From IMG/VR virus record IMGVR_UViG_3300009159_000063, positions 1 through 64,000 of that record: a DNA stretch of 64,000 nt; one strand, given 5' to 3'. The stretch comes from a virus. Both the position numbers and the translations under genes were made by a program. Below, in pieces: positions 43,160-61,021 of this stretch. A model generated the notes under the pieces. That model was not told the origin of the DNA and did not search any database. It saw only the letters and a list, made by a program, of their open reading frames with translations. How positions within the stretch are numbered: the stretch's first letter is position 1; every line of letters starts with the position of its first letter.

Positions 43160-44215
43160 TTATACGCAATGACCTAAAGTAGATTCGTTTATTCCGTATA
43201 TTACAGATGGATTATTAATCCAATTTTCGGTGATAGTACTATTAGGATAATCAGAAGAATTACTCAAATATGAATAATAAGACCCTGAAGGTCCTGCCGT
43301 TGGGTTAAATATTTGCCAAAACTCCCATCTATTATCAACATCATCCCAAAATACGTATCCAATTAATGATGGTGGGAATGTTGAAGGATTATATACTCCA
43401 TAGTAAAACTTATTATTATACGTTCCTGCAACATAAGCATTACTTGTAATTATTATAGGTGTTGTCCCATTTTTAACCACAGTAAAACACATATCTGTTG
43501 GCGGATAACTACATAAACCATATGATGTTAACATATATGTAACTCTTTCACTAACCCAATCAACTGTGTTATCAACAGGGAAACTATTTGTTGATGGTAA
43601 ATACGCAAGTAGTAACCCTCCACCTAAAACTAAAGTCATTTCCCATCTATTTAACGTTGAGTTCCACCAAACGTAAGCATTTCCTCCAACACCAACTAAA
43701 GTATAATAGTACTTACCATTATAAAGTCCTGTTGATGGTATTGTTGTATATATTGGGCCCAAAAATTCATATTCAGTTGTAAAACAAATGATTGGTTCTG
43801 GAGTTGCCGATGGTGTTAGACTAGGTATCGGTGTTGCCGTTGGTGTTAAAGTAGGTGTAGGCGTAATGGTAGGTGTCGGTGTAGGTGTTGGTGTTCCTGT
43901 TGGTGTGGGCGTTGGTAATGCCGTAGCACTTAAAATACATGTTGTATTAACAATAAAATCACCATAAGAATCTGTTATTGTAACAGGGTATTCTCCAACC
44001 CCTAAATTTGTAATTGCTGGAGCTATATTTCCGTTTTCCCAAGAAATTGTATATGGTGGTGTTCCTCCCGTAACTCCAACCGCAATAGATCCATTAAAAG
44101 TTGTAACATTTGTTGGTTCTTTACTGAAGCATTTAGCCCCCATAGGAAATATTGTGAGAACGTCACATTCATTTCTTGGTTCAATACTTGGTTTTGGTCT
44201 ATCAGGTGATGCCAC
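43160..44215 (-). CDS. Pro-Thr linker fibre protein with duplicated C-terminal domain (351 aa)
   Basis: GTG start at 44215 (MASPDRPKP), supported by a TATTTAT box 14 nt upstream. An SprB-like N-terminal domain (GGTPPYTISWENGNIAPAIT..GEYPVTITDSYGD, about 50-90) precedes a 40-residue Pro-Thr linker (about 98-140). Then two copies of a 'YNGKYYY...W....RWE' domain of about 100 residues each. Each begins with CFT and ends near a Cys. The same domain is in the protein at 49763. Likely a receptor-binding fibre or adaptor. Just upstream in the transcript lies the glycosyltransferase gene. Confidence 0.7.
   Translation of the reverse strand: MASPDRPKPSIEPRNECDVLTIFPMGAKCFSKEPTNVTTFNGSIAVGVTGGTPPYTISWENGNIAPAITNLGVGEYPVTITDSYGDFIVNTTCILSATALPTPTPTGTPTPTPTPTITPTPTLTPTATPIPSLTPSATPEPIICFTTEYEFLGPIYTTIPSTGLYNGKYYYTLVGVGGNAYVWWNSTLNRWEMTLVLGGGLLLAYLPSTNSFPVDNTVDWVSERVTYMLTSYGLCSYPPTDMCFTVVKNGTTPIIITSNAYVAGTYNNKFYYGVYNPSTFPPSLIGYVFWDDVDNRWEFWQIFNPTAGPSGSYYSYLSNSSDYPNSTITENWINNPSVIYGINESTLGHCV
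43795..43920 (-). repeat. Pro-Thr coding repeat, minus strand
   Basis: TP-rich linker of the protein at 43160; near-identical units recur in the genes at 39420 and 49763. Confidence 0.85.
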
Positions 44216-44239: not shown

Positions 44240-45217
44240 TTATTTGTCGTTTTCAATGAAAGATTTCATAACTTCTATATATTTGATCGTTGAATTATTA
44301 ACTTCAACATAATCAAAATGATTAGGGTTATTCCTTAATTTTTCAATTGGGTCTACATTTATATACTCGCCCTTGTAAAACTTAATTCTTTTAAGATTGT
44401 CAGTTACTCCGGCCATGTGTAGTATTGGTTTTTTTTCGTACACTTGTATTGGGTCTGTTGCCCAAGAAAAATCTAACTCTTTTGTTATTTTTGTGTCGTT
44501 ACCGTTTAACCAAAGATTCCAAAGTAATGACCACATCTCTGCAGTCCAAAATTGGATCTCTCCTGGATTTATTGGGAATCTTTTTTGATAATCTAACATT
44601 TGGTTATACAAAGGAGTACAATCGGTATATATTTTTTTCCACAGATTATGATCTGTATTTTTGATTAGGTACTGTCCTCCTCCTGAATTTTCTTGATTAC
44701 ATTTAACACAATCAACACTAACTCCAATAACATCAACCATTTCTTGTAATAATTGACCTTTTTCAGATGTTGGGTGGTTTTTTTCATATCTATTACAACA
44801 ATCCATAATATAATTGTAACCTATGTAACCAATTGTGTCTGAAAGATATGTTATATCATCATCTAATAATAAATTAAAATTAGGTAAATAATTAAATATA
44901 ATATCGGCATCGTGTAGAAAAAATAACTTACCAAATTCAGGATATTCCTCTAACCATTTAGAGATTAGGTAAGGTTTAACGCTTGGTATATACGTTTTTA
45001 CGTCTCTATTATCCTCATAAAAATGAATGTTTATTCCAAAATCTTTTAATTTTAAGGCATCTTCAGTCGGGGTTTTAGCTCCGTGTACCATGGCAAAAAT
45101 TACGTGAATTTGGTTTGGGTCAATTCCTTTTTCTATAAAATTGTGAACATAAAGTTTAATTTGCCAATGAAAATATGGAACATCGGGTTGTGCGGTTACA
45201 AATACAATATCTTTCAT
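44240..45217 (-). CDS. Glycosyltransferase-like protein in the tail module
   Basis: 325 residues. An alpha/beta start (MKDIVFVTAQPDVPYFHWQI) leads to a GT-A-like core with a DxD motif HDADIIF (102-108) that would bind Mn2+ and the nucleotide-sugar. Later come SGGGQYLIK (about 180-188) and KKPILHMAGVTDN (about 275-287). The layout resembles hydroxyproline/protein O-glycosyltransferases of the HPAT type, but that subgroup is a guess. Its flanks are Pro-Thr fibre genes, so the target may be the Thr- and Pro-rich linkers. Host glycan or DNA modification is the alternative. No TATTTAT box directly upstream. Confidence 0.65.
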   Translation of the reverse strand: MKDIVFVTAQPDVPYFHWQIKLYVHNFIEKGIDPNQIHVIFAMVHGAKTPTEDALKLKDFGINIHFYEDNRDVKTYIPSVKPYLISKWLEEYPEFGKLFFLHDADIIFNYLPNFNLLLDDDITYLSDTIGYIGYNYIMDCCNRYEKNHPTSEKGQLLQEMVDVIGVSVDCVKCNQENSGGGQYLIKNTDHNLWKKIYTDCTPLYNQMLDYQKRFPINPGEIQFWTAEMWSLLWNLWLNGNDTKITKELDFSWATDPIQVYEKKPILHMAGVTDNLKRIKFYKGEYINVDPIEKLRNNPNHFDYVEVNNSTIKYIEVMKSFIENDK

Positions 45218-45252: not shown

Positions 45253-47211
45253 TTAATAAATTTTGTTTAACGTGAATATCTCTGAATATATTGAGTTTCC
45301 TGCGTTATTAGTATTCCATTCAGCAGTGACAAGAAGTGTATTAGATATTGTAGTATCAAAAGTTGTGTTGTTTACAATACTGAAATTTACTCCTTCAAAG
45401 TCAAGTCCTCCATTTTTAGTGTATGAAAACAATCCCCCTGATGCTATAGAACCTACACTTGCAACTCCTAATTGTCTAATAGTGAAGTTCACATCTAGTT
45501 TCCAATGTTTATTAGTGGTGGCATTCATTGCCATTACCCCTGTTTCCGCTAATAATACACCCGAATCCGTTTTAATTCTAATATGTAAAGTGGCAGAACC
45601 CACACAAGATAGATGCCCTATTAACACTCCATGAAAACCATCACCCACACTAAACCCATTTGCGGGAATTATAATAGATCCTACTCCCCCACTTATTAAT
45701 GTAGTCTCAACAGTTGTTGCACTTACTGCAACGCTGGTTCCTGTTTGAGAAAATAAACCATATACCGTTGGTCCAGGAATTGTTTTAACTTTAACTTCAC
45801 CCGTTGATCCGTCTCTTGTTAAATAATTTAGGGTTGTTCCCGTATCTGTTGTTGGTGTTGATGATATGTTTAATGTTGTTGCCGTAAGTCCACTTGATAT
45901 AATAGTATTACCACTTACGTGTAGTTTTTTTGATGGTGTGGTTGTCCCAATACCAACGTTACCTGTACTAGTGATATTTATTACACCAGATGATGGTGCA
46001 GACGTTCCAATACCACCTATTGACATAGTACCACCAGAAGGGGTATTAATCCAAAAAGATGTACCTAATCCATATTGTAATCTTAAACCGGTATTAGTAT
46101 TACCTGACCCCCATATAAATTGATTACCATCTACTATGGACACTTTTTCACCGGGGTTTGTTATTCCAATACCAACACGACCAATTGAGTCAATTACAAA
46201 TGGTGTTGAATCAGGGTTGGTGCTATCTTCTACTAAGAATGAGTTACCGGCATTTAAATTATTTATGTGAAGTTTAGCAGTTGGTGATGTTATACCAATA
46301 CCCACATCACCTGATGAAGAGATAACCATTCTAGGTGTACTGTTTGGTCTAAATGATATACTATTACTTCCTAGAGTTCCTATAATAAACTCATTACCTG
46401 CGTTAAATAACTCATTATTATCTATACCAATACCGTTATTAATTGTACCAACTAATAATGTTGAACCTGATAAACTAGTACCACCAATTGTTGATGATCC
46501 ACTAATAGCGATTTGTAATCGTTGAGTAGGGTTTGAATTACCAATACCCACATTACCAGATGATGATATATACATTCTAGGGTTAAATTCAGTACCGAAT
46601 ATAAGTTTTCCACCAGAAACTTGATTAAAAACATTTAAATTAGTACTACCAGATGTTTCATACCCAATAAAACCAAATCTACCGGCTGATATCCCTTGTG
46701 GGTAATATTCTTGATATACATGATCAATACCTTCATATCTAACAGAATTAGCGTTACCACTGATCTGTAGGGCAACTGCTGGTGTAGGTGTTCCAATACC
46801 AACACGACCAATTGAGTCAATTACAAATGGTGTTGAATCAGGGTTTGTATCATCCTCTACTAAGAATGTATTACCTGATGTTGTGTTGTTTATATGAAGT
46901 TTTGCTGTTGGATTTGCAATCCCAACCCCTAATCTATTATTTGCTAAATCAATGGTAACCGCACTTGTAGACCCAAAATAAACATTTCCTTCATCTAAAG
47001 GGTTTATGTTAAGAGGTGAACAAGAATGGATGTTAGAAACGTATAAATCGGTAATACAATAACCTGTTATTGAGTCGAAAACTTGTGATATTTTAGCCTT
47101 ATAGGAAGATCCCGCCGGGTTTCCTTGTGATGTGTCACCTGTTATAACAATATGAATTAAATCATTTAATGTTACTCCTGTCGCTAAAGATCTGTCTGTT
47201 AAAAATGCCAT
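45253..47211 (-). CDS. Tail fibre with GxGIGT...KLH repeats (652 aa)
   Basis: Six copies of a 'NVGIGTTTPSKKLHVSG'-type repeat (e.g. RLGVGIANPTAKLHINN, RVGIGTPTPAVALQISG) are spread over about residues 110-430. This repeat is typical of trimeric tail fibres and surface adhesins. The S74-type chaperone domain often found after such repeats is absent. The last 170 residues are beta-rich with WKLDVNFTI. The N-terminus MAFLTDRSLATGVTLNDLIHIV may attach to the tail. Probable host-binding fibre. ATATTTAT box 14 nt upstream. Confidence 0.8.
   Translation of the reverse strand: MAFLTDRSLATGVTLNDLIHIVITGDTSQGNPAGSSYKAKISQVFDSITGYCITDLYVSNIHSCSPLNINPLDEGNVYFGSTSAVTIDLANNRLGVGIANPTAKLHINNTTSGNTFLVEDDTNPDSTPFVIDSIGRVGIGTPTPAVALQISGNANSVRYEGIDHVYQEYYPQGISAGRFGFIGYETSGSTNLNVFNQVSGGKLIFGTEFNPRMYISSSGNVGIGNSNPTQRLQIAISGSSTIGGTSLSGSTLLVGTINNGIGIDNNELFNAGNEFIIGTLGSNSISFRPNSTPRMVISSSGDVGIGITSPTAKLHINNLNAGNSFLVEDSTNPDSTPFVIDSIGRVGIGITNPGEKVSIVDGNQFIWGSGNTNTGLRLQYGLGTSFWINTPSGGTMSIGGIGTSAPSSGVINITSTGNVGIGTTTPSKKLHVSGNTIISSGLTATTLNISSTPTTDTGTTLNYLTRDGSTGEVKVKTIPGPTVYGLFSQTGTSVAVSATTVETTLISGGVGSIIIPANGFSVGDGFHGVLIGHLSCVGSATLHIRIKTDSGVLLAETGVMAMNATTNKHWKLDVNFTIRQLGVASVGSIASGGLFSYTKNGGLDFEGVNFSIVNNTTFDTTISNTLLVTAEWNTNNAGNSIYSEIFTLNKIY
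46164..46218 (-). repeat. 55-bp direct repeat, copy A
   Basis: Identical over 55 bp to 46791-46845 within the fibre gene; codes for NPDSTPFVIDSIGRVGIG. Confidence 0.85.
46791..46845 (-). repeat. 55-bp direct repeat, copy B
   Basis: Identical partner of 46164-46218, 627 bp away. Confidence 0.85.
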
Positions 47212-47234: not shown

Positions 47235-47543
47235 TTAAGTTTGGAAATCATATTCCTCGTTATCCATAAAATAAAAGTCGTCTCCGTCTTGAAATTGTTT
47301 TATTGTAAGAGATTGTTGTGTACAATCAACTATTTTAAATATTTCACAACCTAACGAGTCAATTAGTTTTATACCAACCGCAGGTGCGGTGTTAAATTGT
47401 GATGGTATTGTTAATACTATTGTTGGTGGTTGTGGTGGTAACACATTTGCAACCAAAACACATTGATTACCATAGACATCACAAACAAACACATTATATG
47501 ATGTGAAAATAAAACTTGTTGTTTGTATCTGTATCTGTGCCAT
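47235..47543 (-). CDS. 102-aa fibre-associated protein
   Basis: MAQIQIQTTSFIFTSYNVFVCDVYG..CVLVANVLPPQPP....VGIKLIDSLGCEIFKIV repeats the VCD...C...VKIxD...C pattern of the 71-aa protein at 36867. It ends with an extra acidic tail (GDDFYFMDNEEYDFQT). Its start overlaps the stop of the gene at 47543 by 1 nt, so it is coupled. Function: a small virion domain, not proven. Confidence 0.65.
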   Translation of the reverse strand: MAQIQIQTTSFIFTSYNVFVCDVYGNQCVLVANVLPPQPPTIVLTIPSQFNTAPAVGIKLIDSLGCEIFKIVDCTQQSLTIKQFQDGDDFYFMDNEEYDFQT

Positions 47544-49735
47544 TATATAAAATAAGTTGGGTCTATTATGTTTGGTACTCCTCCAATGTTTTCGTAAATT
47601 TTAAATAGGGTTGTTACGTACTGTGAGGGATATGTTGCGGTATCATATGTCCATATTTCAAAGTCACCACTTAAACTTGTTATTCTAAATTGATAACAAA
47701 CCATTGTCCAACTATATGTTCCAAGATTTTTAGTTGGTGTGTAGTTATAAAAATAAAAATTAGATAGGTCACATGTTTCGGCACTTAAAGATGGTATTGT
47801 CGTTAGTGGTGATCCGGAATATGGGATTGTTTGAATAACATATTTTGGGATCTCCACAGAAGCGGTCACAGTAGTTGAGGAAAAAGTATTAGTAGATGAG
47901 TTTAGTAATCTAAAACGGTAAAACGGATTATCTACTTTTGATCCAGTATTGGTTATAATTGATATATTATTTGTTACTGCCGTTGAGGAATTGTTTATAA
48001 AATCACATATCCCATTTGTATAACCACTACAATTAATGTCACAACTTCCCCACGTTAAAGAATTTGAGATTGTTGGCATTGTAATTGACATTGTCCAAGG
48101 ACCGGTCCCTCCTGTTGTTACTACTGAAGATGGGTGAATGTAGTATTCTTGGAATCCAGTTATATCCCCACATTGTTGTGTGCCTGAAGCTAATGGTATT
48201 CTAAGATTAAAAAATCTATAATAATCAATATCTAATGGGTTTGTTGGGTTTCCCGAATAAGAAGTATAAAAATTATCCCAACTAAAGTTATAATGTTCTA
48301 AATCAGAATATGTATTAAATGTCATGACAATTAAACCCTCACCAAGAACCACAGATTTATCATATGTAATTGTATTTGTATTTGGAACATCACAAGTCGG
48401 GGTAAATATATTAAAGAATGGGTTTCCACATGTAGTTATTGGGTTATAATATAAAATTGACGTGTTTAAATCATATGGTACTGTATCATAAATAAACCCA
48501 TTTATACTTCCATTATATGACGTACCGTCAATAAATCCATTATCGGTATTTAGATATCTAAAAATATTACTATCGTTACATCCCGAAATTTTAAATCCAT
48601 AATAATACCCATCACATGGTTGTGAAATTTTATTTATGGTAGATTCGACAATTCTAATTGGGGGTATTAATGTATCGTAACACAATTCACAATCAAAAGT
48701 CTCTAAACACTCACACAGTAATCCCCAATTTGTGTTATTATTTAAAGGGTTAGGGGTTATTTCTATTTCTAAATAATCCCCACTATTTACAGTAATTCCT
48801 GTTAAACATAAAACTTTTGGGAAAAGCGTATATGTTGTTAGGTTTTTTATAGTTTTTGGGGTAACTAATGGACTAAAATTTGTTTCTGATTGGTTCATCC
48901 CCATACTAATATACTCCAAAACTATAGGGACAGAATAATTAGACCCAAAAAAAGTAATTTTTAAGTCATCATAAATTTGTTGTCCCTTAAATGAATAAGC
49001 AAAATATGGCTTTAATGGATCCAAAGCAAATGTTGTCACAACAGGTTGTGGTGTTATACTTGTGGTGGCACTAAAACTAAACCCGTGAGAATAATAAGGA
49101 CTTGTTGATCCAGGTCCGTTATCACAAGTTAACGCATCTACATTAACTGTAGTAGAGTTAAAACAATTAAGGTCCGTATATTCCGTTCCATTTAATTTAA
49201 TTTTTTGTATTACAGGAGTATAAACTCCGGCAACTATAGGAACTTCGCTTGATCCTGTTAATGGGTGTGTATATAAATAATCACCAACATAATCCGTCCC
49301 ATATCCTGACGTGAAAGCAACTGTTGTACTTACAATTCCAGGTCCGTACCATTCAATGACGTAATCAGTTACACTAGGATCACAACTTGCGGTAATTATT
49401 CCCACTGAAATTACTCCTATTGGGTTTGTATCATAAAAATCAAATCCAATATCACAACTAACACATAATGGATTAATGGTTGTTGTTGATGTTGTCGATG
49501 TTGATGTCGTGGTCGTTCCTTGGAACGTTTGACAATATTCACAATTTGCTGCGTCTATAATTTTAACACCAAAAGATGAATATCCACTATATGGTCCTGG
49601 AATTGTTATTGTTGCGGGGACAGAACTAATTGTATCAACTAAAGTACAATCTATATCAGGACAATCTCTACATACATACACATCAACAGGATATGTTACT
49701 TGTGATATATTTGTTATATTAACTTCTAAAGGCAT
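47543..49735 (-). CDS. Cys-rich fibre protein with Thr-Ser linker (730 aa)
   Basis: The first 70 residues repeat the VYVCRDC...CTLVDT...FGVKIIDAANCEYC module. A TTTTSTSTTSTTTINP linker follows at about 75-90. The long C-terminal part is beta-rich with many Cys (e.g. CDIGFDF, CDPSV, CGNPF, CDVPNT), suggesting several Ig-like or jelly-roll domains. No SprB repeats. Probably a large host-binding fibre. ATG at 49735 with no ATATTTAT box; it lies 27 nt after the gene at 49763. Confidence 0.65.
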   Translation of the reverse strand: MPLEVNITNISQVTYPVDVYVCRDCPDIDCTLVDTISSVPATITIPGPYSGYSSFGVKIIDAANCEYCQTFQGTTTTSTSTTSTTTINPLCVSCDIGFDFYDTNPIGVISVGIITASCDPSVTDYVIEWYGPGIVSTTVAFTSGYGTDYVGDYLYTHPLTGSSEVPIVAGVYTPVIQKIKLNGTEYTDLNCFNSTTVNVDALTCDNGPGSTSPYYSHGFSFSATTSITPQPVVTTFALDPLKPYFAYSFKGQQIYDDLKITFFGSNYSVPIVLEYISMGMNQSETNFSPLVTPKTIKNLTTYTLFPKVLCLTGITVNSGDYLEIEITPNPLNNNTNWGLLCECLETFDCELCYDTLIPPIRIVESTINKISQPCDGYYYGFKISGCNDSNIFRYLNTDNGFIDGTSYNGSINGFIYDTVPYDLNTSILYYNPITTCGNPFFNIFTPTCDVPNTNTITYDKSVVLGEGLIVMTFNTYSDLEHYNFSWDNFYTSYSGNPTNPLDIDYYRFFNLRIPLASGTQQCGDITGFQEYYIHPSSVVTTGGTGPWTMSITMPTISNSLTWGSCDINCSGYTNGICDFINNSSTAVTNNISIITNTGSKVDNPFYRFRLLNSSTNTFSSTTVTASVEIPKYVIQTIPYSGSPLTTIPSLSAETCDLSNFYFYNYTPTKNLGTYSWTMVCYQFRITSLSGDFEIWTYDTATYPSQYVTTLFKIYENIGGVPNIIDPTYFI

Positions 49736-49762: not shown

Positions 49763-52700
49763 TTAAGGTATAAAACTTATTGTTTCACACGATGATATTT
49801 GAGATGCCCCCCCAAACGGTATTGTTGCGGTTTGTAAATATGTTAAAGTATATGGTGAATTTTCATCTATTTGATAGACTTCTCCCCCATTATTTAATAT
49901 ATGTATTTTACCTGAGTCAGTGAATAAACCGTATGGGTTTAGTATGGTTGGGGATATTAATTGGTCAAATTCTAATGTTCCTGTTGAGTAGTCATACTGT
50001 GAAATATATCTGTCAAACCCAATTTGGGTTGTTAATATTAATTTATTACTTGTTGTATAAATAAAATCCCCTGAAATTGTTCTACCCGCAGGTATATTAA
50101 ATTTATTTGTTACTATGGGACTAACACCACTTATATCAATTTCTACCACAGTTTGAGGGGTACTAAAATTTGTAACTCCTGTTGTTGTGATAAGAGTAGT
50201 ATCATCAATTGCGGTTAATCCAGCACCAATAGTGCAGTTACTAATAACAATATTTCTATTGTAAGACCCACTAAATGGACTTAAAATTATGTCATATTCT
50301 GTTATTGCACTTGTGGATGCATAACTTAACCACATTTTATTTGAGGTATGTGCAATATCTCCAGGTCCAGCATCTAAAGTTCCACTTATAAATGGTGTTA
50401 ATAATATATTAGTATTTGTTAATGGATAATAAACATATATACTATTGTCCAAATAAAAAGATGTCATTATATCACATGTCAATAAATTTGGTGGTGTAGG
50501 AGGTATAGGGGATGGGGTTGGTGTAACAGGAGGCCCACAAACATCGGCAACACAAGTATATAGAGATAAACTATAACCACCTGTACCACTATCTAATGTA
50601 GGTACGGTACTTGCACAAACATATGTTGTTGCGCCTCTTCCAACCCCAACTCCCTGAGGAATAGGTTTACAATCGGTATAACTAAATGTTGACCCAGTTG
50701 ATGCCGAACCACCACTTAACTCATAACAATCACAAGGAAAGGCCGGAGTTTGGGTTGGTGTTGGTGTTACTGTTGGTGTTGGTGTTGGATTTAAACAGTT
50801 ACCCAAGGTTGAGTCTTCTATTACACATCCAAAGGCAATCATAAGATCAGTAACCCATGGATACGTTACATTACTTTCTGGAAAATATGATGGATTATCA
50901 TTATGTTGTAAAATTATTGTTGGTGCCGAAATGTTAACATGTTCCCATCTGTTTGTTATATCATTCCAATATACAATACTGTTACAACTTGTTGTACAGT
51001 CTGATTGATAAATTATATAGTATGGTTTACCGTTTATTATACCAACAGGATTTAAACTACAATCCCAAGAAGGTAATACCATTAAGTCAGTATTTACGGT
51101 AAAACACATAATTGTTGCGGGAGTTGCGGTTGGGGTTAACGTTGGTGTAGGTGTAACGGTTGGTGTTGGCGTTAATGTGGGCCCCACTAATGTCATATCT
51201 GCATTAAACCCTAAACATTCAGGTGCCTTACCACAATCTTTACAAGAAATTAAATATTCAATTAGTAAATTGATTTTAACGTTTGTATCCCCTAAATCAT
51301 TAAAATTTGTTAACTGACAATCCTTAATTTTCTCATTACAGTTATTTGTGATTGTTATCTTATTTTTTCCAAGATCAATTATAACATCACCAATTTCAGG
51401 ATATTCTTGTATTGTGTCTTTAAGACTTTGTATCCATATTGTGTCCGCATATTGAGCAAAACTACCACCTGTATATGTATAAAATAAATCTTCTTTTATA
51501 ACCCCATCGATTTCTACTTGGGTTCTGAATGTCGCATTTACAATATAACAACCAATATCTCCTGATGTTAGATCAAAAAACCCTTCATTCATCATTTGTA
51601 GTATTCCTCTCTTACCATATATTCCGGTATTAACAAAATCATCAGAACATACTGTATATGAAGCATAACTAGTTGTTAATTCAGTACCATTTAATATTAT
51701 TGTATCACTTTTTAAACAACCTTCACTATCTGTCACTAATACAGAGTAATTTCCATTTGATAACCCCGTTAAATGTAGTCCTGTTTGAGCCCCAACATTT
51801 GAACTCCAAACAATTGTGAAAGGTGGTACTCCACTTGTTATATTTAAATAAATTTCACCGTCATTACCAATAGTTGGTTGTACACCAACTAAAGTAAAAT
51901 CAACAGGTTGGGAATCTGCAATATAGAAATTTTCAGTTTGTGTACAGGTAGGTGATCCCGAATCTGTTACTGTTGCAACATAAAACCCAGAACTTAAATT
52001 GTTAAATACATTTGTTAATTGGGTTGTTGTTGTAACGGGTGTTCCTCCTGATAAATTATATGATAACGGTAATGTTCCTCCTGAAGTAGCGGTTATTATT
52101 GCGGTACCATTATTTAAACCACATGTTGTATCTGAATAACTTACTGATATTTCATATTTATTTACATTTACAACAGTAAAATGTCCAGTATATATACATC
52201 CCGAATTATTAGGGACATCTTGTATTAATATTGTATAACTTCCACTTTCTAAACCAAAAAAATCACAAATTGAGTTTGTGGTAGTTACGGTAGAATTTCC
52301 GTTGAAGTCATATAAAGTGTATTGGTAGTTTCCCGGAGATAGTCCATTATTTAATTCTATGTGAACAGATCCATCACTTGAATTACAATTAGAGTTTGTT
52401 ACTGACATTGTCGTAACAATAAAACCATTTGGTGTTAATAACGAAACGGAACTTATCACATTACAAAGTCCTGCATCTGTTACTGACACTGTAAATACTC
52501 CCGAAGATAAACCTGTAAAAGTATAGATATTACTATACTGTATTGTTATTTCACCGTTTGAACCTGAAAAATAATAAGGTGCGGTTCCTCCTGAAACAAT
52601 AACCTCAACCTCTCCATCATTTGAAAAACAAGAGGGTTGTATTGTTGTTAACATTGCGGCAACTCCCAAATCAGGAACATCAGATAGTACAACACTTTTA

Positions 52701-53434
52701 GTTATCGTACATCCTTCAAAGTCGGTTATTGTAAGTGTGTAGGTTCCCAAAGTTAGTCCTGTAACTTCAGGGCCTGTTTGCGTTCCAACATTAGGACTCC
52801 AACTATACGTATAAGGCGGATTTCCTGTTAGACCTGTCACAAATATTTTTCCTGTACCATCAATAGGTACACAACTTGCATCATTTACAACATATAGACC
52901 AAAGTCCAAAGGACTTGTTTCTTTAATTAAACAAACTTCACTTCTTCCTGTACATCCACCACCATCATCACCGATCACATAATATAGTCCTGGTGAAAGA
53001 TTTGTAAAAACATTACTTGTACTGTCACCACTTGTTATATACCCTAAAGTGTTTTCGTATAAATAAAACGATCCAACACCATAATAATTTGTTGTTGATG
53101 CGGTAATCGTACCATTATTTAGTCCACAAGTAGTCCCACTACTTTCTATAGACACACAGGTTCCTGAAGATATTGTAAATTCAACATATCTAGGAATAAA
53201 AGGTGGTTCTAAACAACTATCTATAATCTCTAAAATATAAGTATCAGGAGTTAGACCTGTAACAAAATAAGTTGTTGTATTTGATGATAGCGGTAATAAA
53301 CCTGATGTTGATATCTCACTTACAGTATAATTTGGGGATCCTCCTGTAATAGAAAAGGAAACTCCCCCAAATCCTGAGTTTGTGCAGTCTCCACTTACAC
53401 TATAATTATATATATTTATTGACCCACAACTCAT
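49763..53434 (-). CDS. Giant fibre protein with seven SprB-like repeats and Pro-Thr linkers (1223 aa)
   Basis: About seven units of 75-85 residues over about 1-580 have the SprB pattern: a Cys, then GxxPPYTYSWS, TGLxxGTYTLTITD and GC. The clearest is GNPPYTYSWSPNVGTQTGP..LGTYTLTITDFEGC. SprB is the gliding adhesin of Flavobacterium. Pro-Thr linkers are at about 751-775, 880-895 and 968-985. Between the first two is a 'YYI..YWNDITNRWEHV' module shared with the gene at 43160. The C-terminal 250 residues look like a beta-propeller (repeated DTT/ITTT, YDIILSPFSG, YISQYDYSTG). Likely a long host-binding or tip fibre. 4-nt overlap with the gene upstream. Confidence 0.75.
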   Translation of the reverse strand: MSCGSINIYNYSVSGDCTNSGFGGVSFSITGGSPNYTVSEISTSGLLPLSSNTTTYFVTGLTPDTYILEIIDSCLEPPFIPRYVEFTISSGTCVSIESSGTTCGLNNGTITASTTNYYGVGSFYLYENTLGYITSGDSTSNVFTNLSPGLYYVIGDDGGGCTGRSEVCLIKETSPLDFGLYVVNDASCVPIDGTGKIFVTGLTGNPPYTYSWSPNVGTQTGPEVTGLTLGTYTLTITDFEGCTITKSVVLSDVPDLGVAAMLTTIQPSCFSNDGEVEVIVSGGTAPYYFSGSNGEITIQYSNIYTFTGLSSGVFTVSVTDAGLCNVISSVSLLTPNGFIVTTMSVTNSNCNSSDGSVHIELNNGLSPGNYQYTLYDFNGNSTVTTTNSICDFFGLESGSYTILIQDVPNNSGCIYTGHFTVVNVNKYEISVSYSDTTCGLNNGTAIITATSGGTLPLSYNLSGGTPVTTTTQLTNVFNNLSSGFYVATVTDSGSPTCTQTENFYIADSQPVDFTLVGVQPTIGNDGEIYLNITSGVPPFTIVWSSNVGAQTGLHLTGLSNGNYSVLVTDSEGCLKSDTIILNGTELTTSYASYTVCSDDFVNTGIYGKRGILQMMNEGFFDLTSGDIGCYIVNATFRTQVEIDGVIKEDLFYTYTGGSFAQYADTIWIQSLKDTIQEYPEIGDVIIDLGKNKITITNNCNEKIKDCQLTNFNDLGDTNVKINLLIEYLISCKDCGKAPECLGFNADMTLVGPTLTPTPTVTPTPTLTPTATPATIMCFTVNTDLMVLPSWDCSLNPVGIINGKPYYIIYQSDCTTSCNSIVYWNDITNRWEHVNISAPTIILQHNDNPSYFPESNVTYPWVTDLMIAFGCVIEDSTLGNCLNPTPTPTVTPTPTQTPAFPCDCYELSGGSASTGSTFSYTDCKPIPQGVGVGRGATTYVCASTVPTLDSGTGGYSLSLYTCVADVCGPPVTPTPSPIPPTPPNLLTCDIMTSFYLDNSIYVYYPLTNTNILLTPFISGTLDAGPGDIAHTSNKMWLSYASTSAITEYDIILSPFSGSYNRNIVISNCTIGAGLTAIDDTTLITTTGVTNFSTPQTVVEIDISGVSPIVTNKFNIPAGRTISGDFIYTTSNKLILTTQIGFDRYISQYDYSTGTLEFDQLISPTILNPYGLFTDSGKIHILNNGGEVYQIDENSPYTLTYLQTATIPFGGASQISSCETISFIP
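50742..51185 (-). repeat. Pro-Thr coding repeats, minus strand
   Basis: Two TP linkers (50742-50795 and 51112-51185) bracket the small domain shared with the protein at 43160. Confidence 0.8.
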
Positions 53435-56433
53435 TGGTTACAAAGTAGATTAAAGTTTATTCCAACATTTATTTTAAAATCTTGAGTAACACTTAATGGA
53501 ATACAATTACCATTATATACAGTAACAGTATCATCAGTATTAATAACATAATTTAAACCTTCTGATTGTAAATTACTTAAACTCGATTCAAGTGCGGTTA
53601 TCCAATCGTTTTGAGATGGGTAACTAGCAATAGGACTTGTATTACCATATCCCGTAAAAAATTCATCATGAACTAAAGTATTACCATTTAAAACTAAATC
53701 AATATACCAAGTACTTTCTAATGAATTAAGATCACAACCAGTCAAAACATATCCTTGAGATTGTAATAAACTATTTAACACAACCGCAAATGAGGTCACT
53801 GTTGGATTAGACCCCCAAGGATAGATAGGACAAGTAACTTCTTGTATAGGACAATCAACCGCAAATAATTGACCAACCAACGCACAAGGTTTACATGGTA
53901 TTGGAACTATTTGACAACCCATTTGTCTTCTCCAAACAAATTTTTGTCTATGAAATATAGAATTTTCCAATCTTACTCCTGATGTTACCAATGTTGTTGC
54001 TGGTATCATTTGTCCAACTAATTTTATCCAATAATCGCCTATTCCATTAACATAGTCGATCATTGTTCTATATGTAAAGTTATCGTTAGGGATATTAATC
54101 GCCTGTTCAGATTCTAAGTATTTCCAATATATAGACTGTAATGTTGGGTATCCTCCTGTTTTACCATCGGTAATAAATTGTCTATTTCTAACATTGATCA
54201 TGTTATGCCAAAATGTTTGAGCAAACTCAAAGAATGTTTTTTGTTTTGGTTTTGGGTTAATTTCAGTCCAATCTATACCTCCCCTATTTGGGTATGGTCC
54301 GTTTGGATTAGGGTTACAATATGTTGGTTCAACATAGTCTAATCCCTCATTTGGTATTGGGTAATTATACTGTCTTGACATTGACCAAACATCATAAACC
54401 AACCCTTGAGCCGGATTTAAAAATACGTCAACATTTTTAACGTTTACAACAAATCTTTCATCATAAACCCTATAGTATGCAGTAAATCCACCATCAGACG
54501 TATTTCTTAAACCAACATTATCAATAGTCCAACTTTTTTTATTATCAATTACTTTAACTAAATCATAACCTAAAGACATAAATGGAAATTTACGATACCT
54601 ATCAAGGTATGTTTGACCATAATTAAATGGTAATAGAACAGTTTGGTAATTAGGGTTTTGACCAACAAATACTTGATTTGTCTCTACAACTTGTTCAGGC
54701 ATGTGATGATCAGGTGTTGATTCATACCAACCTCCTCCTATTTGGAAGAAATACCCTTCGCTTTCTTGTGCTGCGGTTGGGTAACCTAAACTATCCATTG
54801 GATAATCTAACCTTGTTGTTGTTACTCCACTAATAGTCGTTTGTAATGTAAAACCGCTATATAGGACTCCCATTATTGAAAATGTATCTGTAGGGTCTGA
54901 AACAGGAAGTTGTTGTACATACAGACCACCTGAAATATTTAAATATTGATTTTCAAACTGAGAAAGGTTTATTCTTTCATCTGCAATGTATATGTATTCA
55001 TTAAAATCAATTAAAGCCTCAGGTGCTCCAATCAATCTTAATAAAATTTCAATAGATCTTCTTGTTCCCTTTGATTTAAACAAATAGGCGGCATTTAAAA
55101 TTAAATTTTTATAGAATTGGTAATTAATTTCATCAGGAGTTAACGCTCTTGAGTATCCAGGAAAATTACTTTCTTGATTGGTACCAAAAATTGAATCTAA
55201 AAGCGATTCATTACTTATTGGTGAAATGTTTGTTTTCCACCCTAATGTTTCTGCAAGATTTTTTAATAATTGTGATGGTATGTCATTACCTGTATTGTAA
55301 TTAACGGATGTCATATTTGCCAATGACATAACAAATTTTCTCACCTCATCAAAACTTCTTCCGTATATCTGTAATACCTTTTCTAATTTTCTATCACCAG
55401 TATCAAATTCTTTTAATGCTCCTGTGGTTAAAAACCTTGATATTAAATTAGTATTATATGAGTCTAAGTTTTCACATAAGTCATTTAAAGTTGTTAAATA
55501 TTTATCAAAATCGTTAGTTCTAATATCTAAATTCCACAATCCATCCAAAGGCCATGTAATGTTTTGACTTGTTGTTGTGTAAGTACCATCATTGTTTTCT
55601 TGTGGAACTTGGAAAGTTGCGGTATAAATTGGTTGTATTAATCTATTTAAAAGAAATTTTTCTACCTCATCAAAAAAATCATTAAACGATTTTTCCGTAT
55701 AAGTAGTGTTGGGTCTTAATATGATATTATCTGTTGTTGCGGACATCCCTGAAAAAGGATTTCCATTTACATAAAGTTTTAAATAATTATCAGTTTCATC
55801 AGTAGGATCTAAAAATACTACGTTATATTCGGAATTATTAACAAATATTGAATAGTTCCTATATTGAACTGTTAAATTTCTTAAAGGTGATTGCTCAACC
55901 TCACTTAATTCAAAGTTTCTTGTTGCGTTTGTTGTAAAATCAATATCAAATGGATTTCTTATCCAATTTAAAGGTATCTCTAAATATGTTTCATTTAAAA
56001 TTTTGTTATATAAAATATTAACTGCCGTTAGTCCTGTTTGAAAATTAAGGTTATTCTTTAAACATTCTACGGATGCCGGAAAATAATTAATTATTCTTGT
56101 TATAGACGTTGAAATTCTTTTTGTTAGTGATCCAAATAATGTAAAGTTGGTTATTTCACTTAAATCAAAATTTGGGTAAACTTGTAAATTTTTAGCAATT
56201 AAGACTTTTGACTCTTCGATACTTTTTAAATCTAAATCAGATAAACTTATCGGATCTGAAAAAGCACCAATATTAAATGTTCTGTTTTGTTTTTCAGTAA
56301 TTCCTGTTGTGAACTCAAAATTAGCGTTAGTTAATCCCCCACCGGCAACTAATTGAACCCCAACTAAATCGTCAGAAAATGTACTATCTCCTGTATCAGT
56401 TTGTGGAGGCCATTTATATTTTATTACTGCCAT
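53431..56433 (-). CDS. Tail/baseplate structural protein (1000 aa)
   Basis: The segment LFKSKGTRRSIEILLRLIGAP (about 452-471) matches a helix seen in tail proteins of the P2 gpI/baseplate kind, where 'KGT..sie.ll...G' recurs. The long N-terminal half has alternating helices and strands; the rest is beta-rich with many aromatic residues (YRKFPFMSLGYDLV). It is flanked by large structural genes and overlaps both neighbours by 1-4 nt. Probable baseplate wedge or tail-tip protein; exact T4 counterpart unknown. Confidence 0.6.
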   Translation of the reverse strand: MAVIKYKWPPQTDTGDSTFSDDLVGVQLVAGGGLTNANFEFTTGITEKQNRTFNIGAFSDPISLSDLDLKSIEESKVLIAKNLQVYPNFDLSEITNFTLFGSLTKRISTSITRIINYFPASVECLKNNLNFQTGLTAVNILYNKILNETYLEIPLNWIRNPFDIDFTTNATRNFELSEVEQSPLRNLTVQYRNYSIFVNNSEYNVVFLDPTDETDNYLKLYVNGNPFSGMSATTDNIILRPNTTYTEKSFNDFFDEVEKFLLNRLIQPIYTATFQVPQENNDGTYTTTSQNITWPLDGLWNLDIRTNDFDKYLTTLNDLCENLDSYNTNLISRFLTTGALKEFDTGDRKLEKVLQIYGRSFDEVRKFVMSLANMTSVNYNTGNDIPSQLLKNLAETLGWKTNISPISNESLLDSIFGTNQESNFPGYSRALTPDEINYQFYKNLILNAAYLFKSKGTRRSIEILLRLIGAPEALIDFNEYIYIADERINLSQFENQYLNISGGLYVQQLPVSDPTDTFSIMGVLYSGFTLQTTISGVTTTRLDYPMDSLGYPTAAQESEGYFFQIGGGWYESTPDHHMPEQVVETNQVFVGQNPNYQTVLLPFNYGQTYLDRYRKFPFMSLGYDLVKVIDNKKSWTIDNVGLRNTSDGGFTAYYRVYDERFVVNVKNVDVFLNPAQGLVYDVWSMSRQYNYPIPNEGLDYVEPTYCNPNPNGPYPNRGGIDWTEINPKPKQKTFFEFAQTFWHNMINVRNRQFITDGKTGGYPTLQSIYWKYLESEQAINIPNDNFTYRTMIDYVNGIGDYWIKLVGQMIPATTLVTSGVRLENSIFHRQKFVWRRQMGCQIVPIPCKPCALVGQLFAVDCPIQEVTCPIYPWGSNPTVTSFAVVLNSLLQSQGYVLTGCDLNSLESTWYIDLVLNGNTLVHDEFFTGYGNTSPIASYPSQNDWITALESSLSNLQSEGLNYVINTDDTVTVYNGNCIPLSVTQDFKINVGINFNLLCNQ

Positions 56434-57341
56434 TATTGTGTTATATTTGCAAAGTTTTTACTAAAATCTATGTTATCACCTCTATCTTGTTTTACTTCAT
56501 ATAAAAGTTCGTTATATTGATCTCTAATTTCAAATAAATTGTATTGTTTGTAAATGTTATTCTGAGTATCGTAAAGTGTATAAATTCCATCATTAAGAGA
56601 CTTAGTCTGATTACCAAACAAAGAAATTGCCAATGTGGAAATGTCGTGTTCAACCATTTCAATCTCCATAGTAACAGGATTAAAGAATGTATTACTTATT
56701 ATTATTTCTTGATCTGGTTGACCAATAAATGGTGTTGCGTTTGGTTTGTTAGATGGTGATGAAGAAGGTGATAATGTACAAAATATTAAATTTGTAACCC
56801 CATTCACATATTGATATCTAACAGTGCTTGTTGAGGTGTTTGTGGTATTTTGGACCACGGGTTCGCAGTAAAAAGATGAGGTAACTATTCTGAAAAAATT
56901 TGGTATTTTAGCCCCACTTGTCTGTAAGTATTCAACCCTATAACCAATTAAACCTTGATTAACAAATTTATCTCTGAATGAAACGGGAACGTTACTTATA
57001 TCTATTACTATCCCTTTTATGTTTGGTAGTGCTGCCAATATACCACAATCAGTTATTCTAGTTCTAATTTCTGCGGGTCTTATATATAATGTATAAATCC
57101 CTAATTGATTAAAAATATTTGATGGTAGTCTTAAATTATATAGTCCACCTAAGATTTCTACACCTGAATTACCTCCAGTATTTGTGTTGTGAAAATAAGG
57201 GGTCAAAACCGCAGAAGAATTTAATTTTGTCAACTGAAAGTTGTTTGTAACGTCTCTTGACTCCGTATAATTTAATATAATATCAACGTCAGTTGGACTT
57301 ACGTCCGCCGGTCTTATTGTTCCATATGTTCCTGTTGCCAT
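56433..57341 (-). CDS. Structural protein in tail operon (302 aa)
   Basis: Not recognised. MATGTYGTIRPADVSPTDVDI start, beta-rich with Ig-like spacing (YTLYIRPAEIRTRI, YRVEYLQTSG). A Ser-Pro-rich patch (CTLSPSSSPSNKPNAT) divides it. Led by an ATATTTAT box 21 nt upstream and overlapping the next gene by 1 nt. Likely a minor tail protein. Confidence 0.6.
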   Translation of the reverse strand: MATGTYGTIRPADVSPTDVDIILNYTESRDVTNNFQLTKLNSSAVLTPYFHNTNTGGNSGVEILGGLYNLRLPSNIFNQLGIYTLYIRPAEIRTRITDCGILAALPNIKGIVIDISNVPVSFRDKFVNQGLIGYRVEYLQTSGAKIPNFFRIVTSSFYCEPVVQNTTNTSTSTVRYQYVNGVTNLIFCTLSPSSSPSNKPNATPFIGQPDQEIIISNTFFNPVTMEIEMVEHDISTLAISLFGNQTKSLNDGIYTLYDTQNNIYKQYNLFEIRDQYNELLYEVKQDRGDNIDFSKNFANITQ

Positions 57342-57362
57342 GTAATTTTACTTTGTTATTTT

Positions 57363-57370
57363 ATAAATAT
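57363..57370 (-). promoter_or_regulatory. ATATTTAT box within tail operon
   Basis: Exact octamer, 21 nt before the ATG at 57341; it starts a second transcription unit inside the operon. Confidence 0.45.
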
Positions 57371-57376
57371 TAATAA

Positions 57377-58519
57377 TTAAGTTTCCACGTTAAAAAAACC
57401 ATAACCATATTTGACTAAATCTCCTATGTTATCAACTTCTCCTAATCTTTCGATAGATTCTAACGCCGAATTTTTCCCCCTTTCAATAAATAAATCAGAT
57501 CTTATTTCAGGTTCATAAGCCACCCCAATTAATGCTTCTTCTTTTGTCATCGCAGATAAAACCAAATCATTTTGTGTTAATCCCGAAGATTGAACAAAAT
57601 ATAATGTTGTACCTCCACTTAGGTCCCAATAATCCACACCATTTATTGTATACGCAGAATACGATCCATTTGGTACTGATCCGTAATAGATACCAACAAC
57701 TCCTGTTTCTCCTGTTACTTGTATTCCTAATGGGTATGGTACTGGTCCATACTGTTCTAAGTCAGATAATGTAGAATTTGTCGTTCCTGTTACCAAAAAT
57801 GGTACTCCAACATAACTTGAACTTATATAATCTATAATATTTGGGTTCGAGTCTCCTGTAAATAAGAAATCATAACTTACGGGAATGTTTGCCCAATTAC
57901 CCCCTTGTTGGTAAAATACTACCGTTCCATTTGGATTAATTGGTACTATATTTTGGTAAGGTACGTTTATGGTTTTTGTAACTTCAGTTATCCCCCAAGG
58001 TGTAGTTCCTTTAATTTTTATTGTATAAATACCATTAGATGCGGGGTACGTATGGTTTAATGATGAGGGTGAAAAAATATTAATAGGGACTATCGGCGAT
58101 CCATCCCCCCAATCTATTTCAAATACCGATTGAGTTACATTATTTGATGTATTAAAAACATAAAATGTATATGGATTAATAGTGTCAGATGAAAAAATAA
58201 AGTTATTTAAAGTTTCTTTTTGGTAAATTAAACCATCAAACACAGAATACCATCCCATATCGTATGTTGTCTGTGTTAACATGATTGGAATAGTTAACCC
58301 TGTTAAGGTTGAGTCTCCGTTTGTTCCCCCTGATAATAATTGGGTCATGGAAGAATAAACATATGTTGTCCCTGTTTCACAATTAACGTAAGTTACCCCT
58401 GTAGGACAACAAGGATCTTCCACATATATTTCTTCACAATCTCCTGTCCAATTAATAGGAAATATTTTATTCTTTATATCTTCAAGACCAATCTGTATAT
58501 AATATCTTTGTTCTTCCAT
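57377..58519 (-). CDS. PKD-like structural protein (380 aa)
   Basis: A PKD-like domain at about 145-195 has the FEIDWGDGSP...NHTYPASNGIYTIKI signature; PKD domains are common in surface proteins and in phage fibres. The C-terminal segment YEPEIRSDLFIERGKNSALE..LGEVDNIGDLVKYGYGFF recurs in phage structural proteins, possibly for assembly. Its N-terminus (EEQRYYIQIGLEDIKNKIF) may bind the next protein in the tail. 1-nt overlap with the next gene upstream. Confidence 0.65.
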   Translation of the reverse strand: MEEQRYYIQIGLEDIKNKIFPINWTGDCEEIYVEDPCCPTGVTYVNCETGTTYVYSSMTQLLSGGTNGDSTLTGLTIPIMLTQTTYDMGWYSVFDGLIYQKETLNNFIFSSDTINPYTFYVFNTSNNVTQSVFEIDWGDGSPIVPINIFSPSSLNHTYPASNGIYTIKIKGTTPWGITEVTKTINVPYQNIVPINPNGTVVFYQQGGNWANIPVSYDFLFTGDSNPNIIDYISSSYVGVPFLVTGTTNSTLSDLEQYGPVPYPLGIQVTGETGVVGIYYGSVPNGSYSAYTINGVDYWDLSGGTTLYFVQSSGLTQNDLVLSAMTKEEALIGVAYEPEIRSDLFIERGKNSALESIERLGEVDNIGDLVKYGYGFFNVET

Positions 58520-59301
58520 TATGGGTTCATATATTCATACCAGTTTATTGGTGTTGTTGTTCCAACTCTATTATTATTGTTGTCTTTAATAGTATATGTA
58601 AAATCACTGTAATCTAAATTAACTTCATAATAAAAATACTCAGCGGGATCAAAATTATATTGTGTAGGTAAAATACTTGTTTGTGGAGTGTTTGTCATAA
58701 TAACATAACTTCCCGTTTTACCGTTAAAGAATTTGGCCCTCATATAAAAAGTATCTATATCAATAAAATCTCTACTTCTAACCCAATAAATAAAAAACCC
58801 TTCTTTATCTCCAACAAAGTCTAACTTAAATTCAGGTTTTTTTATGTTAACAGTAGGGATGGACGGACTTAAAACTAAACCGTTTTCTATTCCCCCTTGT
58901 TGTACTGGTAAAATTATTGTTAAATAATTTCTTTGTGTTGCAGAATCTTTAGTATCATATAGGTCTAACTTGAAGAAACTTTTTGTGAATGGTTTTGTGT
59001 AATAATAGACTTCATTAACGGAAAATCCTTCGGTTAAATAAGAAGAGTTCCATAAATTAAGAGATTGATCAAAAAATCCAAAATCGTAATTTATATCGGT
59101 CTTATCAGTATTATCATGTTTTTTATGTGAGAATCTTGCAACCTCAAAATCATTTTCTTTACCAATAACCTCATCAATAGTTTTAAGAACAAATTCATCA
59201 ATGGCGTCATCATTACCATCTATGTCCCACTTAACTTCAACAGGTATATTAATATAAACGTCTGTTGGTTTTTTCAATATTTTATAATTATTCACAATCA
59301 T
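58519..59301 (-). CDS. Structural protein (260 aa)
   Basis: Not recognised. Beta-rich, with segments KPTDVYINIPVEVKWDIDGN and FFIYWVRSRDFIDIDTFYMR. No linkers, no Cys. Flanked by structural genes with 1-nt and 14-nt overlaps, so part of the tail operon. Could be a baseplate or neck protein. Confidence 0.6.
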   Translation of the reverse strand: MIVNNYKILKKPTDVYINIPVEVKWDIDGNDDAIDEFVLKTIDEVIGKENDFEVARFSHKKHDNTDKTDINYDFGFFDQSLNLWNSSYLTEGFSVNEVYYYTKPFTKSFFKLDLYDTKDSATQRNYLTIILPVQQGGIENGLVLSPSIPTVNIKKPEFKLDFVGDKEGFFIYWVRSRDFIDIDTFYMRAKFFNGKTGSYVIMTNTPQTSILPTQYNFDPAEYFYYEVNLDYSDFTYTIKDNNNNRVGTTTPINWYEYMNP

Positions 59302-61021
59302 CTATAATAGGTTCTGCAATTACGTTTGGATTATTTATATTACTTCCGTCTCCAATTAATCTGAATATAATTTGATCGTAAGGGTAATGACTACCATTTA
59401 AAAATGGGTAATCAACTCCGAATCCTTCACTATCTTTGTACCCATATGGGTAAATATCTCTCCATCTAAAAGTTTGACTTGTTATTGAGAAATATGAGTA
59501 GTCAGGAACTAAATCTATATTTTGATATCCTTCTTCATTTACAGATGTTGAGAAAACTTTAATTGTCATTGGGTGGTGTACTTTATAGTAATACCCTAAT
59601 TGATTTGATGGTGTTAACAAACTTGTTGATGTAAAGTAGTTAGGATTAAATGTGAATTTTTGATAGGTACTTGATATAACTCGTTCTTTTTGTTCATAAG
59701 GATTAAATTCACAAAAGTCTCCATTTATGTTATCTCCAATATTTAAATTATCGACATAATAAAAAACATTACCATTAGATGTGTAATTGTTTGTTAAAAA
59801 CCCTGTATCCGATTGTGTATTTGTTTGATCCCACCAAACACTAGGTTGGTTATTCTCTAAAGGTAAATTAAATTCGTAACCCTCTTTAAGATTTGTATTC
59901 GGACCTAATGTCCACCCAAAATATCCTTTCCAAATAAAACTAAAAAATAACTCGCTTACAGGTCTGTTAAGGTTATCCCTTAAACCGTCAATATCAATGT
60001 TATTATTAAACATTAAATTGTAACTGTCATTACCTTCTTTAATTGAAGATCTATCAACCCCATTTGGTGTTAAGACCGCTTTTTCAAATTTAACGGCTTT
60101 ACTAAAAATATTTTTTTCAAATCCGGCATTAACTAAAACAGAATCTTCAATACTAGTTAATATTTTGTGAACCCTAACATAATAGTTTGAGGTTGTGTCT
60201 ATTTCATTAGTTGCGTTTATAATTCTTTTAAATGTCCCTGTTGTGTTCACACTGAAAGTGGTACCTAAATACCCTATATTTTGTATGTTAAAAATGTAAT
60301 CTTCAGAATCATAATTTTCATTACCCAAAGAAGTCACTTGAAAGGTGTCTGTTCCATTGTAATTAAAGTTAAGTTTAACTGATTCTCCAACAGATAATCC
60401 ATGATTCATAGGACATCTAAATGATATTACATCGTCACCATATAAAGTGTTGTTTTCAATAATAAACGGTATTCCATCAAAAGCCTGCCAAGACCATGTG
60501 TTTGTAGTATCTTGATCATCAGCATATAATTGTCGATCAACATTTAAATGTGGGTACGTTAAATAATACATCCAATTATATGTTGTTGCACTTTTATTAA
60601 TAAAACTAACATGATTACCCACACCTGTTGTGTATCCATTTACATTATTATCTGTCCTAATAAGATCAAATTCATAATATTGTGGAAATCCATCCCAAGG
60701 TGCTGATGGATTACCTATTGATGTAACCGCATTTGATATAGCGTTTGTGTAATATAAATTATTTCTATATGGAACATAAGACGTTCCTCCACTGTATTGG
60801 TTTTTAAATAAAAATACTATCTTTGTTGTTGGTCTAAATATTGTAGATTCTCCTCTTTCTTTTTGAAACAACTCAGCCAAATTTATTTCTTCGGTTCTAT
60901 CATATTCAACTTGTTGTTTAAACGTTTGATTTAGAGGAACTCTTACCGCTTCATCAACATTTGAGGATATTTTATTCTTTTTAGATCCTAATAATATTTG
61001 TATAGTTTCATTATTACCCAT
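59288..61021 (-). CDS. Structural protein (577 aa)
   Basis: Not recognised. N-terminus MGNNETIQILLGSKKNKISS; the rest is beta-rich with many Asn/Tyr, e.g. FLFKNQYSGGTSYVPY and YYEFDLIRTDNNVNGY. A long, low-charge, Asn-rich composition fits a phage tail or fibre protein. Overlaps both neighbours (8 nt and 14 nt). No chaperone or enzyme motif. Confidence 0.6.
   Translation of the reverse strand: MGNNETIQILLGSKKNKISSNVDEAVRVPLNQTFKQQVEYDRTEEINLAELFQKERGESTIFRPTTKIVFLFKNQYSGGTSYVPYRNNLYYTNAISNAVTSIGNPSAPWDGFPQYYEFDLIRTDNNVNGYTTGVGNHVSFINKSATTYNWMYYLTYPHLNVDRQLYADDQDTTNTWSWQAFDGIPFIIENNTLYGDDVISFRCPMNHGLSVGESVKLNFNYNGTDTFQVTSLGNENYDSEDYIFNIQNIGYLGTTFSVNTTGTFKRIINATNEIDTTSNYYVRVHKILTSIEDSVLVNAGFEKNIFSKAVKFEKAVLTPNGVDRSSIKEGNDSYNLMFNNNIDIDGLRDNLNRPVSELFFSFIWKGYFGWTLGPNTNLKEGYEFNLPLENNQPSVWWDQTNTQSDTGFLTNNYTSNGNVFYYVDNLNIGDNINGDFCEFNPYEQKERVISSTYQKFTFNPNYFTSTSLLTPSNQLGYYYKVHHPMTIKVFSTSVNEEGYQNIDLVPDYSYFSITSQTFRWRDIYPYGYKDSEGFGVDYPFLNGSHYPYDQIIFRLIGDGSNINNPNVIAEPIIDDCE

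Follow-up and report, generated by a model that had tools for sequence, protein, structure and literature searches.

Seven SprB-type repeats form a fixed array in a putative baseplate-attached fibre of a probable Bacteroidota jumbo phage

SprB repeats (Pfam PF13573) are found in the gliding adhesin SprB of F. johnsoniae, a protein of about 6500 residues, and in many other surface proteins of Bacteroidota. SprB itself is a type B substrate of the type IX secretion system (T9SS) (PMC10994853). On the phage side, the BACON repeats of crAssphage have a proposed role in host binding (PMC6949934). The subject here is a 64,000-nucleotide stretch of DNA from a lake virus (the window), which is part of the 69,658-bp IMG/VR virus record IMGVR_UViG_3300009159_000063, and within it the gene at 49763-53434 on the minus strand, which encodes a tail protein with SprB-type repeats. 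The protein is probably the baseplate-attached fibre, or adhesin carrier, of a contractile-tailed Bacteroidota jumbo phage, with three parts: an arm of SprB units, a domain termed CAP that would tie the arm to the tail, and C-terminal modules that would act as receptor-binding tips.

The repeat gene starts with ATG and encodes 1223 residues. The protein matches the Pfam SprB family at 50 bits (E 2.2e-13; curated cut-off 28), and five separate stretches of it each pass the cut-off, which is exceeded in 25 of 29 related or compared records. An AlphaFold2 (AF2) model of 740 residues, built on an alignment of 20 relatives (A1), places seven consecutive beta-sandwich domains of 75-88 residues each within residues 5-582, with a mean predicted local distance difference test score (pLDDT) of 78; the predicted template modelling score is low (0.34), as expected of a flexible chain. 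A profile made from bacterial repeats only gives the protein 231.6 bits, where the best of 500 shuffles (permutations of the same residues) reaches 10.1, and it matches all seven units at 10-56 bits, with a per-unit shuffle maximum of 8.6. These scores are somewhat favourable because the bacterial units were gathered with a profile of the phage repeats; the Pfam result is independent of that profile. The initial annotation, made from the letters alone, had placed seven tandem SprB-type units in the first 580 or so residues. Their coordinates, number and approximate length were right, and the units are members of the SprB repeat family, not just generic immunoglobulin-like (Ig-like) phage domains.

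From the N-terminus, and all on the minus strand, the units are D1 (53159-53422, residues 5-92), D2 (52913-53158, residues 93-174), D3 (52676-52906, residues 177-253), D4 (52430-52675, residues 254-335), D5 (52169-52429, residues 336-422), D6 (51914-52162, residues 425-507) and D7 (51689-51913, residues 508-582). With the bacterial profile, D3 and D7 each score 56 bits, D4, which is the best Pfam stretch, 53, D6 40, D5 29 and D2 22; D1 is the weakest match, its 10 bits barely exceeding the shuffle maximum. When each position is given a profile of its own, D3, D4, D6 and D7 match bacterial repeats at 50-67 bits (shuffled controls about 9 or less), and D1, D2 and D5 are more diverged from them. 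The D3 profile reaches 64 bits with bacterial units (shuffled 9), a unit close to bacterial SprB repeats, and that of D6 reaches 67 bits with bacterial units and at most 52 with other phage positions. D2 is the most diverged unit: it holds an invariant YYVIG-DGGGC-G-S motif, and its own profile gives no bacterial match above 20 bits.

The array of seven units is an old one and has stayed fixed. A tree was built on 68 columns only, with 84 units of 12 phages set among about 175 bacterial ones; each of the seven positions is monophyletic in it across the 12 phages (support 0.63-1.0; 0.96 for D1), and the units are collinear in the alignment of 20 relatives. Since each position forms its own clade in all 12 phages, the array predates the split of the group and has undergone no expansion or shuffling since. 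Collectively, the phage units form no clade in the free tree, and a constraint to a single phage clade is not rejected (approximately unbiased test, p 0.68); a single origin of the phage units, as against several, is thus neither shown nor rejected.

The array is encoded within a baseplate operon, which bears out its earlier assignment to a phage tail protein. Upstream on the same strand lie genes for a gp25-like wedge protein (record 68401-68859; PF04965, E 3e-11) and a gp6/J-like wedge protein (record 66555-68396; phrog_219, E 1.3e-17, on an identical contig), followed by five unnamed genes, a gene for a 1000-residue protein and the repeat gene. The five genes (56433-63704, minus strand; 302, 380, 260, 577 and 896 residues) are conserved in synteny and gave no named family in profile searches of the PDB and PHROGs. 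The 1000-residue tail protein (53431-56433, minus strand), a proposed attachment partner in the baseplate that possibly occupies the position of P2 gpI, is strictly linked to the repeat gene, whose start overlaps its stop by 4 nt (53431-53434). The two genes adjoin wherever the contigs of relatives reach, and the order from the 896-residue gene through the repeat gene is kept in the examined relatives to the same extent, the exceptions being two with a fused gene (L051 and L052). In these two the 1000-residue protein runs straight on into C-terminal modules of the repeat-gene kind, without SprB units, which links such modules to the baseplate protein. The fusion (L051, 4667-11266, and likewise in L052) has 2199 residues and comprises the baseplate protein, WN-RWE modules and a propeller-like C-terminal domain. 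P2-like phages keep their tail fibre at the corresponding place in the operon.

In the proposed fibre, the seven Ig-like units would make an arm of fixed length. It is followed by CAP (51230-51688, minus strand, residues 583-735), an alpha/beta domain by AF2 secondary structure. CAP, of approximately 150 residues, has a homologue in the last ~140 residues of the 1000-residue protein (53434-53850, minus strand, residues 862-1000): hhalign gives a probability of 90.8 (E 1.2e-6), and 13 control comparisons all gave 0.8 or less. The order of secondary-structure elements is the same in the AF2 models of both, the latter model having a pLDDT of 41. Through this relationship CAP may act in the assembly of the baseplate or in docking to it, and so tie the arm to the tail.

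The remainder of the protein (49766-51229, minus strand, residues 736-1223) is variable and consists of Thr/Pro linkers and swappable modules. Compared with the relative L020, the window DNA is ∼97% identical over 12.7 kb upstream of and into the repeat gene and 98.7% identical over 6.6 kb downstream; the repeat protein is 86-100% identical up to residue ∼900 and 2-38% thereafter. Where swapping has changed the C-terminus, the repeat array remains 94-100% identical. A 730-residue gene next to the fibre gene (47543-49735), without a family match, is hypervariable too (77% DNA identity to L020). Some relatives lack the C-terminal region and others have it replaced, for example by DUF285 leucine-rich repeats; in L023 (10001-13360) these form the C-terminal module (E 2e-46). 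A WN--(N)RWE module (50792-51112, minus strand, residues ∼775-881; blastp among window proteins, E 2e-6) has two further copies in the protein encoded at 43160-44215 and several in the fused relative L051, and the C-termini of some relatives carry modules in common with the 43160 protein. Module swapping is typical of receptor-binding tips and is established for phage fibres generally; by analogy, the Thr/Pro-linked modules, which recombine between close relatives, may be the receptor-binding tips here. A diversity-generating retroelement was considered as the source of the variation and ruled out, since no reverse transcriptase (RVT_1) was found in nine records, the contigs of 91 and 290 kb included; the variation looks instead like recombination.

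The genome and host of this phage can be approached through related contigs. Over 23.7 kb, the tail region of the window is 99.98% identical to a 91-kb contig from the same phage, which carries further genes for a tail sheath, baseplate hub, head-tail adaptor, DnaB-type helicase, DNA polymerase and ribonucleotide reductase. The tail cluster recurs on contigs of 274, 290.7 and 290.9 kb, with protein identities to the window of 79-93% in the upstream genes and 76% in the repeat region; judged by this shared cluster, the window most likely comes from a jumbo phage with a genome of about 290 kb. Two tail-operon proteins were tested against 50,697 phage records and found no relative. An unusually long tail sheath of 1109 residues is encoded at L173 (12119-15448), where sheath families match the C-terminal ∼280 residues only. 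The host phylum is very likely Bacteroidota, because SprB repeats are nearly confined there (above the cut-off in 31 of 148 sampled Bacteroidota genomes, often many per genome, and in none of 14 control genomes), sister phages encode T9SS-tagged proteins, and no Shine-Dalgarno-like site precedes the start codon in 34 window genes checked, a lack usual for Bacteroidota. In a profile scan of contigs, nearly all relatives among the matches listed were Bacteroidota. Bacterial contigs carrying the phage protein, as a direct link to a host, were also considered: none of at least 76 loci among the matches listed has the phage-specific motif DGGGC[TS]G[KRQ]S, so these loci look like bacterial repeat proteins.

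The T9SS-tagged proteins show the repeat family in a second setting (signal peptides were judged by eye). An 839-residue open reading frame (ORF) on the 290,710-bp contig G006 (L175, 3509-6028; also in G180 and G181) has a signal peptide, SprB repeats and the type B sorting domain CHU_C (E 8e-14); it lies elsewhere in the 290-kb sister genomes than the tail cluster, and its predicted product apparently reaches the host surface by export. A further protein of the 290-kb sisters bears a T9SS sorting domain of type A, and phage ORFs combining a signal peptide with such a domain were seen at L187 (79-1686) and L189 (1492-2928). In a 177-kb relative (G013), a 338-residue SprB-repeat ORF (L176, 3661-4677) has a signal peptide and a C-terminus that, by eye, looks like a type A sorting domain, though no family matches it. 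The 642-kb phage LR756502.1 encodes a 1670-residue ORF (L159, 13246-18255) with a signal peptide, 14 SprB stretches, PKD and CHU_C; elsewhere in its record CHU_C occurs at two further places and Por_Secre_tail at one. No T9SS-tagged SprB-repeat gene was found in the window's own record, which is incomplete at 69,658 bp. A phage-encoded SprF/PorP carrier (SprF, PF11751) for the exported SprB-repeat protein was looked for in nine phage records; neither these records nor the controls gave a match. It is conceivable, if rather improbable, that these phages use the repeat family twice, as the arm of a virion fibre and as a separate protein that the T9SS of the infected cell would carry to the cell surface, where it could mask or occupy the target of the fibre, for example to exclude other phages. 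The repeats would then be functionally paired, fibre and exported copy, and not mere spacers.

Single SprB-type units occur elsewhere in the tail cluster, as had been noticed in the initial annotation. One (43949-44113, minus strand) lies in the 351-residue protein encoded at 43160-44215, with 31.1 bits against Pfam and 53 against the bacterial profile; the other (42634-42846, minus strand), in the 334-residue protein encoded at 42154-43158, scores 15.2 bits against Pfam, below the cut-off, and 35.6 against the bacterial profile. The relative G028 has the homologues of both genes joined in a single ORF of 759 residues with two Pfam SprB stretches. A separate tail fibre gene of 652 residues (45253-47211, minus strand; phrog_18345 tail fiber, E 3.9e-17) lies nearby. 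Inside the same fibre cluster, 44240-45217 encodes a conserved 325-residue protein that matches phrog_4417 (function unknown; E 2e-68) and looks glycosyltransferase-like by eye.

Other readings of the array have to be weighed against the fibre proposed here. The SprB units might themselves bind the receptor, for example surface glycans, or pair with SprB-repeat adhesins of the host; they would then imitate a host adhesin or compete with it. This is an unlikely reading, although it would suit those relatives that have repeats and CAP only, and the same repeat family does decorate Bacteroidota surfaces. Some flavobacterial phages need gliding-machinery proteins for adsorption, with SprB or RemA suggested as receptors (PMC13288928, PMC7345892), which makes the idea testable without favouring it specifically here. 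What is conserved in the protein is the array, its unit positions being fixed in all 12 phages placed, unlike typical receptor-binding domains, and the swapping is C-terminal. Nor does any feature tie it to SprB over the general repeat family. SprB repeats are too widespread among Bacteroidota genomes, often with many per genome, to be a gliding marker. The phage protein is far shorter than SprB, its N-terminus MSCGSINIYNYSVSGDC has no signal peptide (no hydrophobic leader by eye), and the type B sorting domain CHU_C (PF13585) has no match in it or in G000. Among solved structures, the best match is GhpA of Aureispira (PDB 9flp, 9fly, 9flw; E 6e-18, 17% identity), not a gliding adhesin. Because the repeats are general Bacteroidota surface modules and the protein lacks the signal peptide, T9SS domain and size of SprB, the suggestion that the fibre mimics, binds or competes with the gliding adhesin is unsupported. 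Of the parallel suggestion of capture from the host, a Bacteroidota origin of the repeats at the family level is plausible from the bacterial relatives and the GhpA match, and the link to SprB specifically is not supported.

Convergence, in which the phage lineage's own structural Ig-like domains, of an ordinary kind, came to resemble SprB repeats, is less probable still. Phage tails commonly carry Ig-like domains, the repeat model has many Ig/FN3 matches in BFVD and the PDB, the tree tolerates a single phage clade, and D1 and D2 match bacterial repeats weakly; D3, D4, D6 and D7, however, agree in the details of the motif and reach 40-56 bits with the bacterial profile versus 8.6 for shuffles, and for D6 the bacterial units are a better match than any other phage position. 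A role outside the virion, in which the infected cell would make the phage-encoded repeat protein and display it on its surface, is very improbable. In its favour, SprB-repeat proteins that carry signal peptides and T9SS sorting domains are encoded by the sister phages and by LR756502; the window protein, however, begins MSCGSINIYNYSV, without a signal peptide, and has neither a CHU_C nor a Por_Secre_tail domain; its gene sits in the baseplate operon, and a neighbouring protein has the paralogous domain.

Several points weigh against the baseplate-attached fibre as well. In several relatives the protein stops at the end of CAP, and for them the C-terminus cannot be where the receptor is bound. 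The 1000-residue partner has no significant family match (Tail_P2_I only at E 0.33, in 1 of 11 members), and its AF2 model is too poor for a fold search. The fibre is proposed from genes and predicted folds, and the host is inferred, not observed.

Among known systems, the bacterial PF13573 proteins share the sequence motif and the Ig-like unit with the phage array; they are secreted and have up to dozens of units, whereas the phage protein has seven fixed units and is encoded in a tail operon. GhpA is likewise a long chain in a Bacteroidota surface protein, a bacterial one of about 5000 residues that serves predation. As in the W-J-I-H order of P2 gpH and T4-type tail fibres, the repeat gene comes after gp25-like and J/gp6-like baseplate genes, but other genes intervene here and these fibres have no sequence relation to the repeat protein. 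Cryophage encodes T9SS cargo proteins with sorting domains (PMC7468147); these are type A enzymes, to which the sister phages add a type B (CHU_C) SprB-repeat protein. The nearest phage protein is A0A6J5LD72 of an uncultured Caudovirales phage, annotated 'SprB repeat' and evidently of the same kind (31% identity over the 740-residue model, Foldseek E 9.5e-56); the open literature searched yielded no study of its function or evolution and no direct report of SprB repeats in phage tails. As UniProt already has phage proteins with this annotation, the SprB repeat in phages is not new as such; newly described are the fixed array, its operon, the relation of CAP and the swapping of tips. With the array fixed group-wide and the tips swapped, scaffold and specificity would be separated within one gene, and the repeats together with the T9SS-tagged proteins of sister phages also act as markers of the host for a jumbo-phage lineage of which the phage collection has no cultured member. 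A known parallel is BACON in crAssphage, in which tandem domains of Bacteroidota type are likewise tied to phage tail proteins. There the domain family is another one and the phages are crAss-like phages of the gut, whereas here a contractile-tailed, probably jumbo phage carries seven invariant units, as a second clear case of Bacteroidota phages with tail proteins from a repeat family typical of host surfaces.

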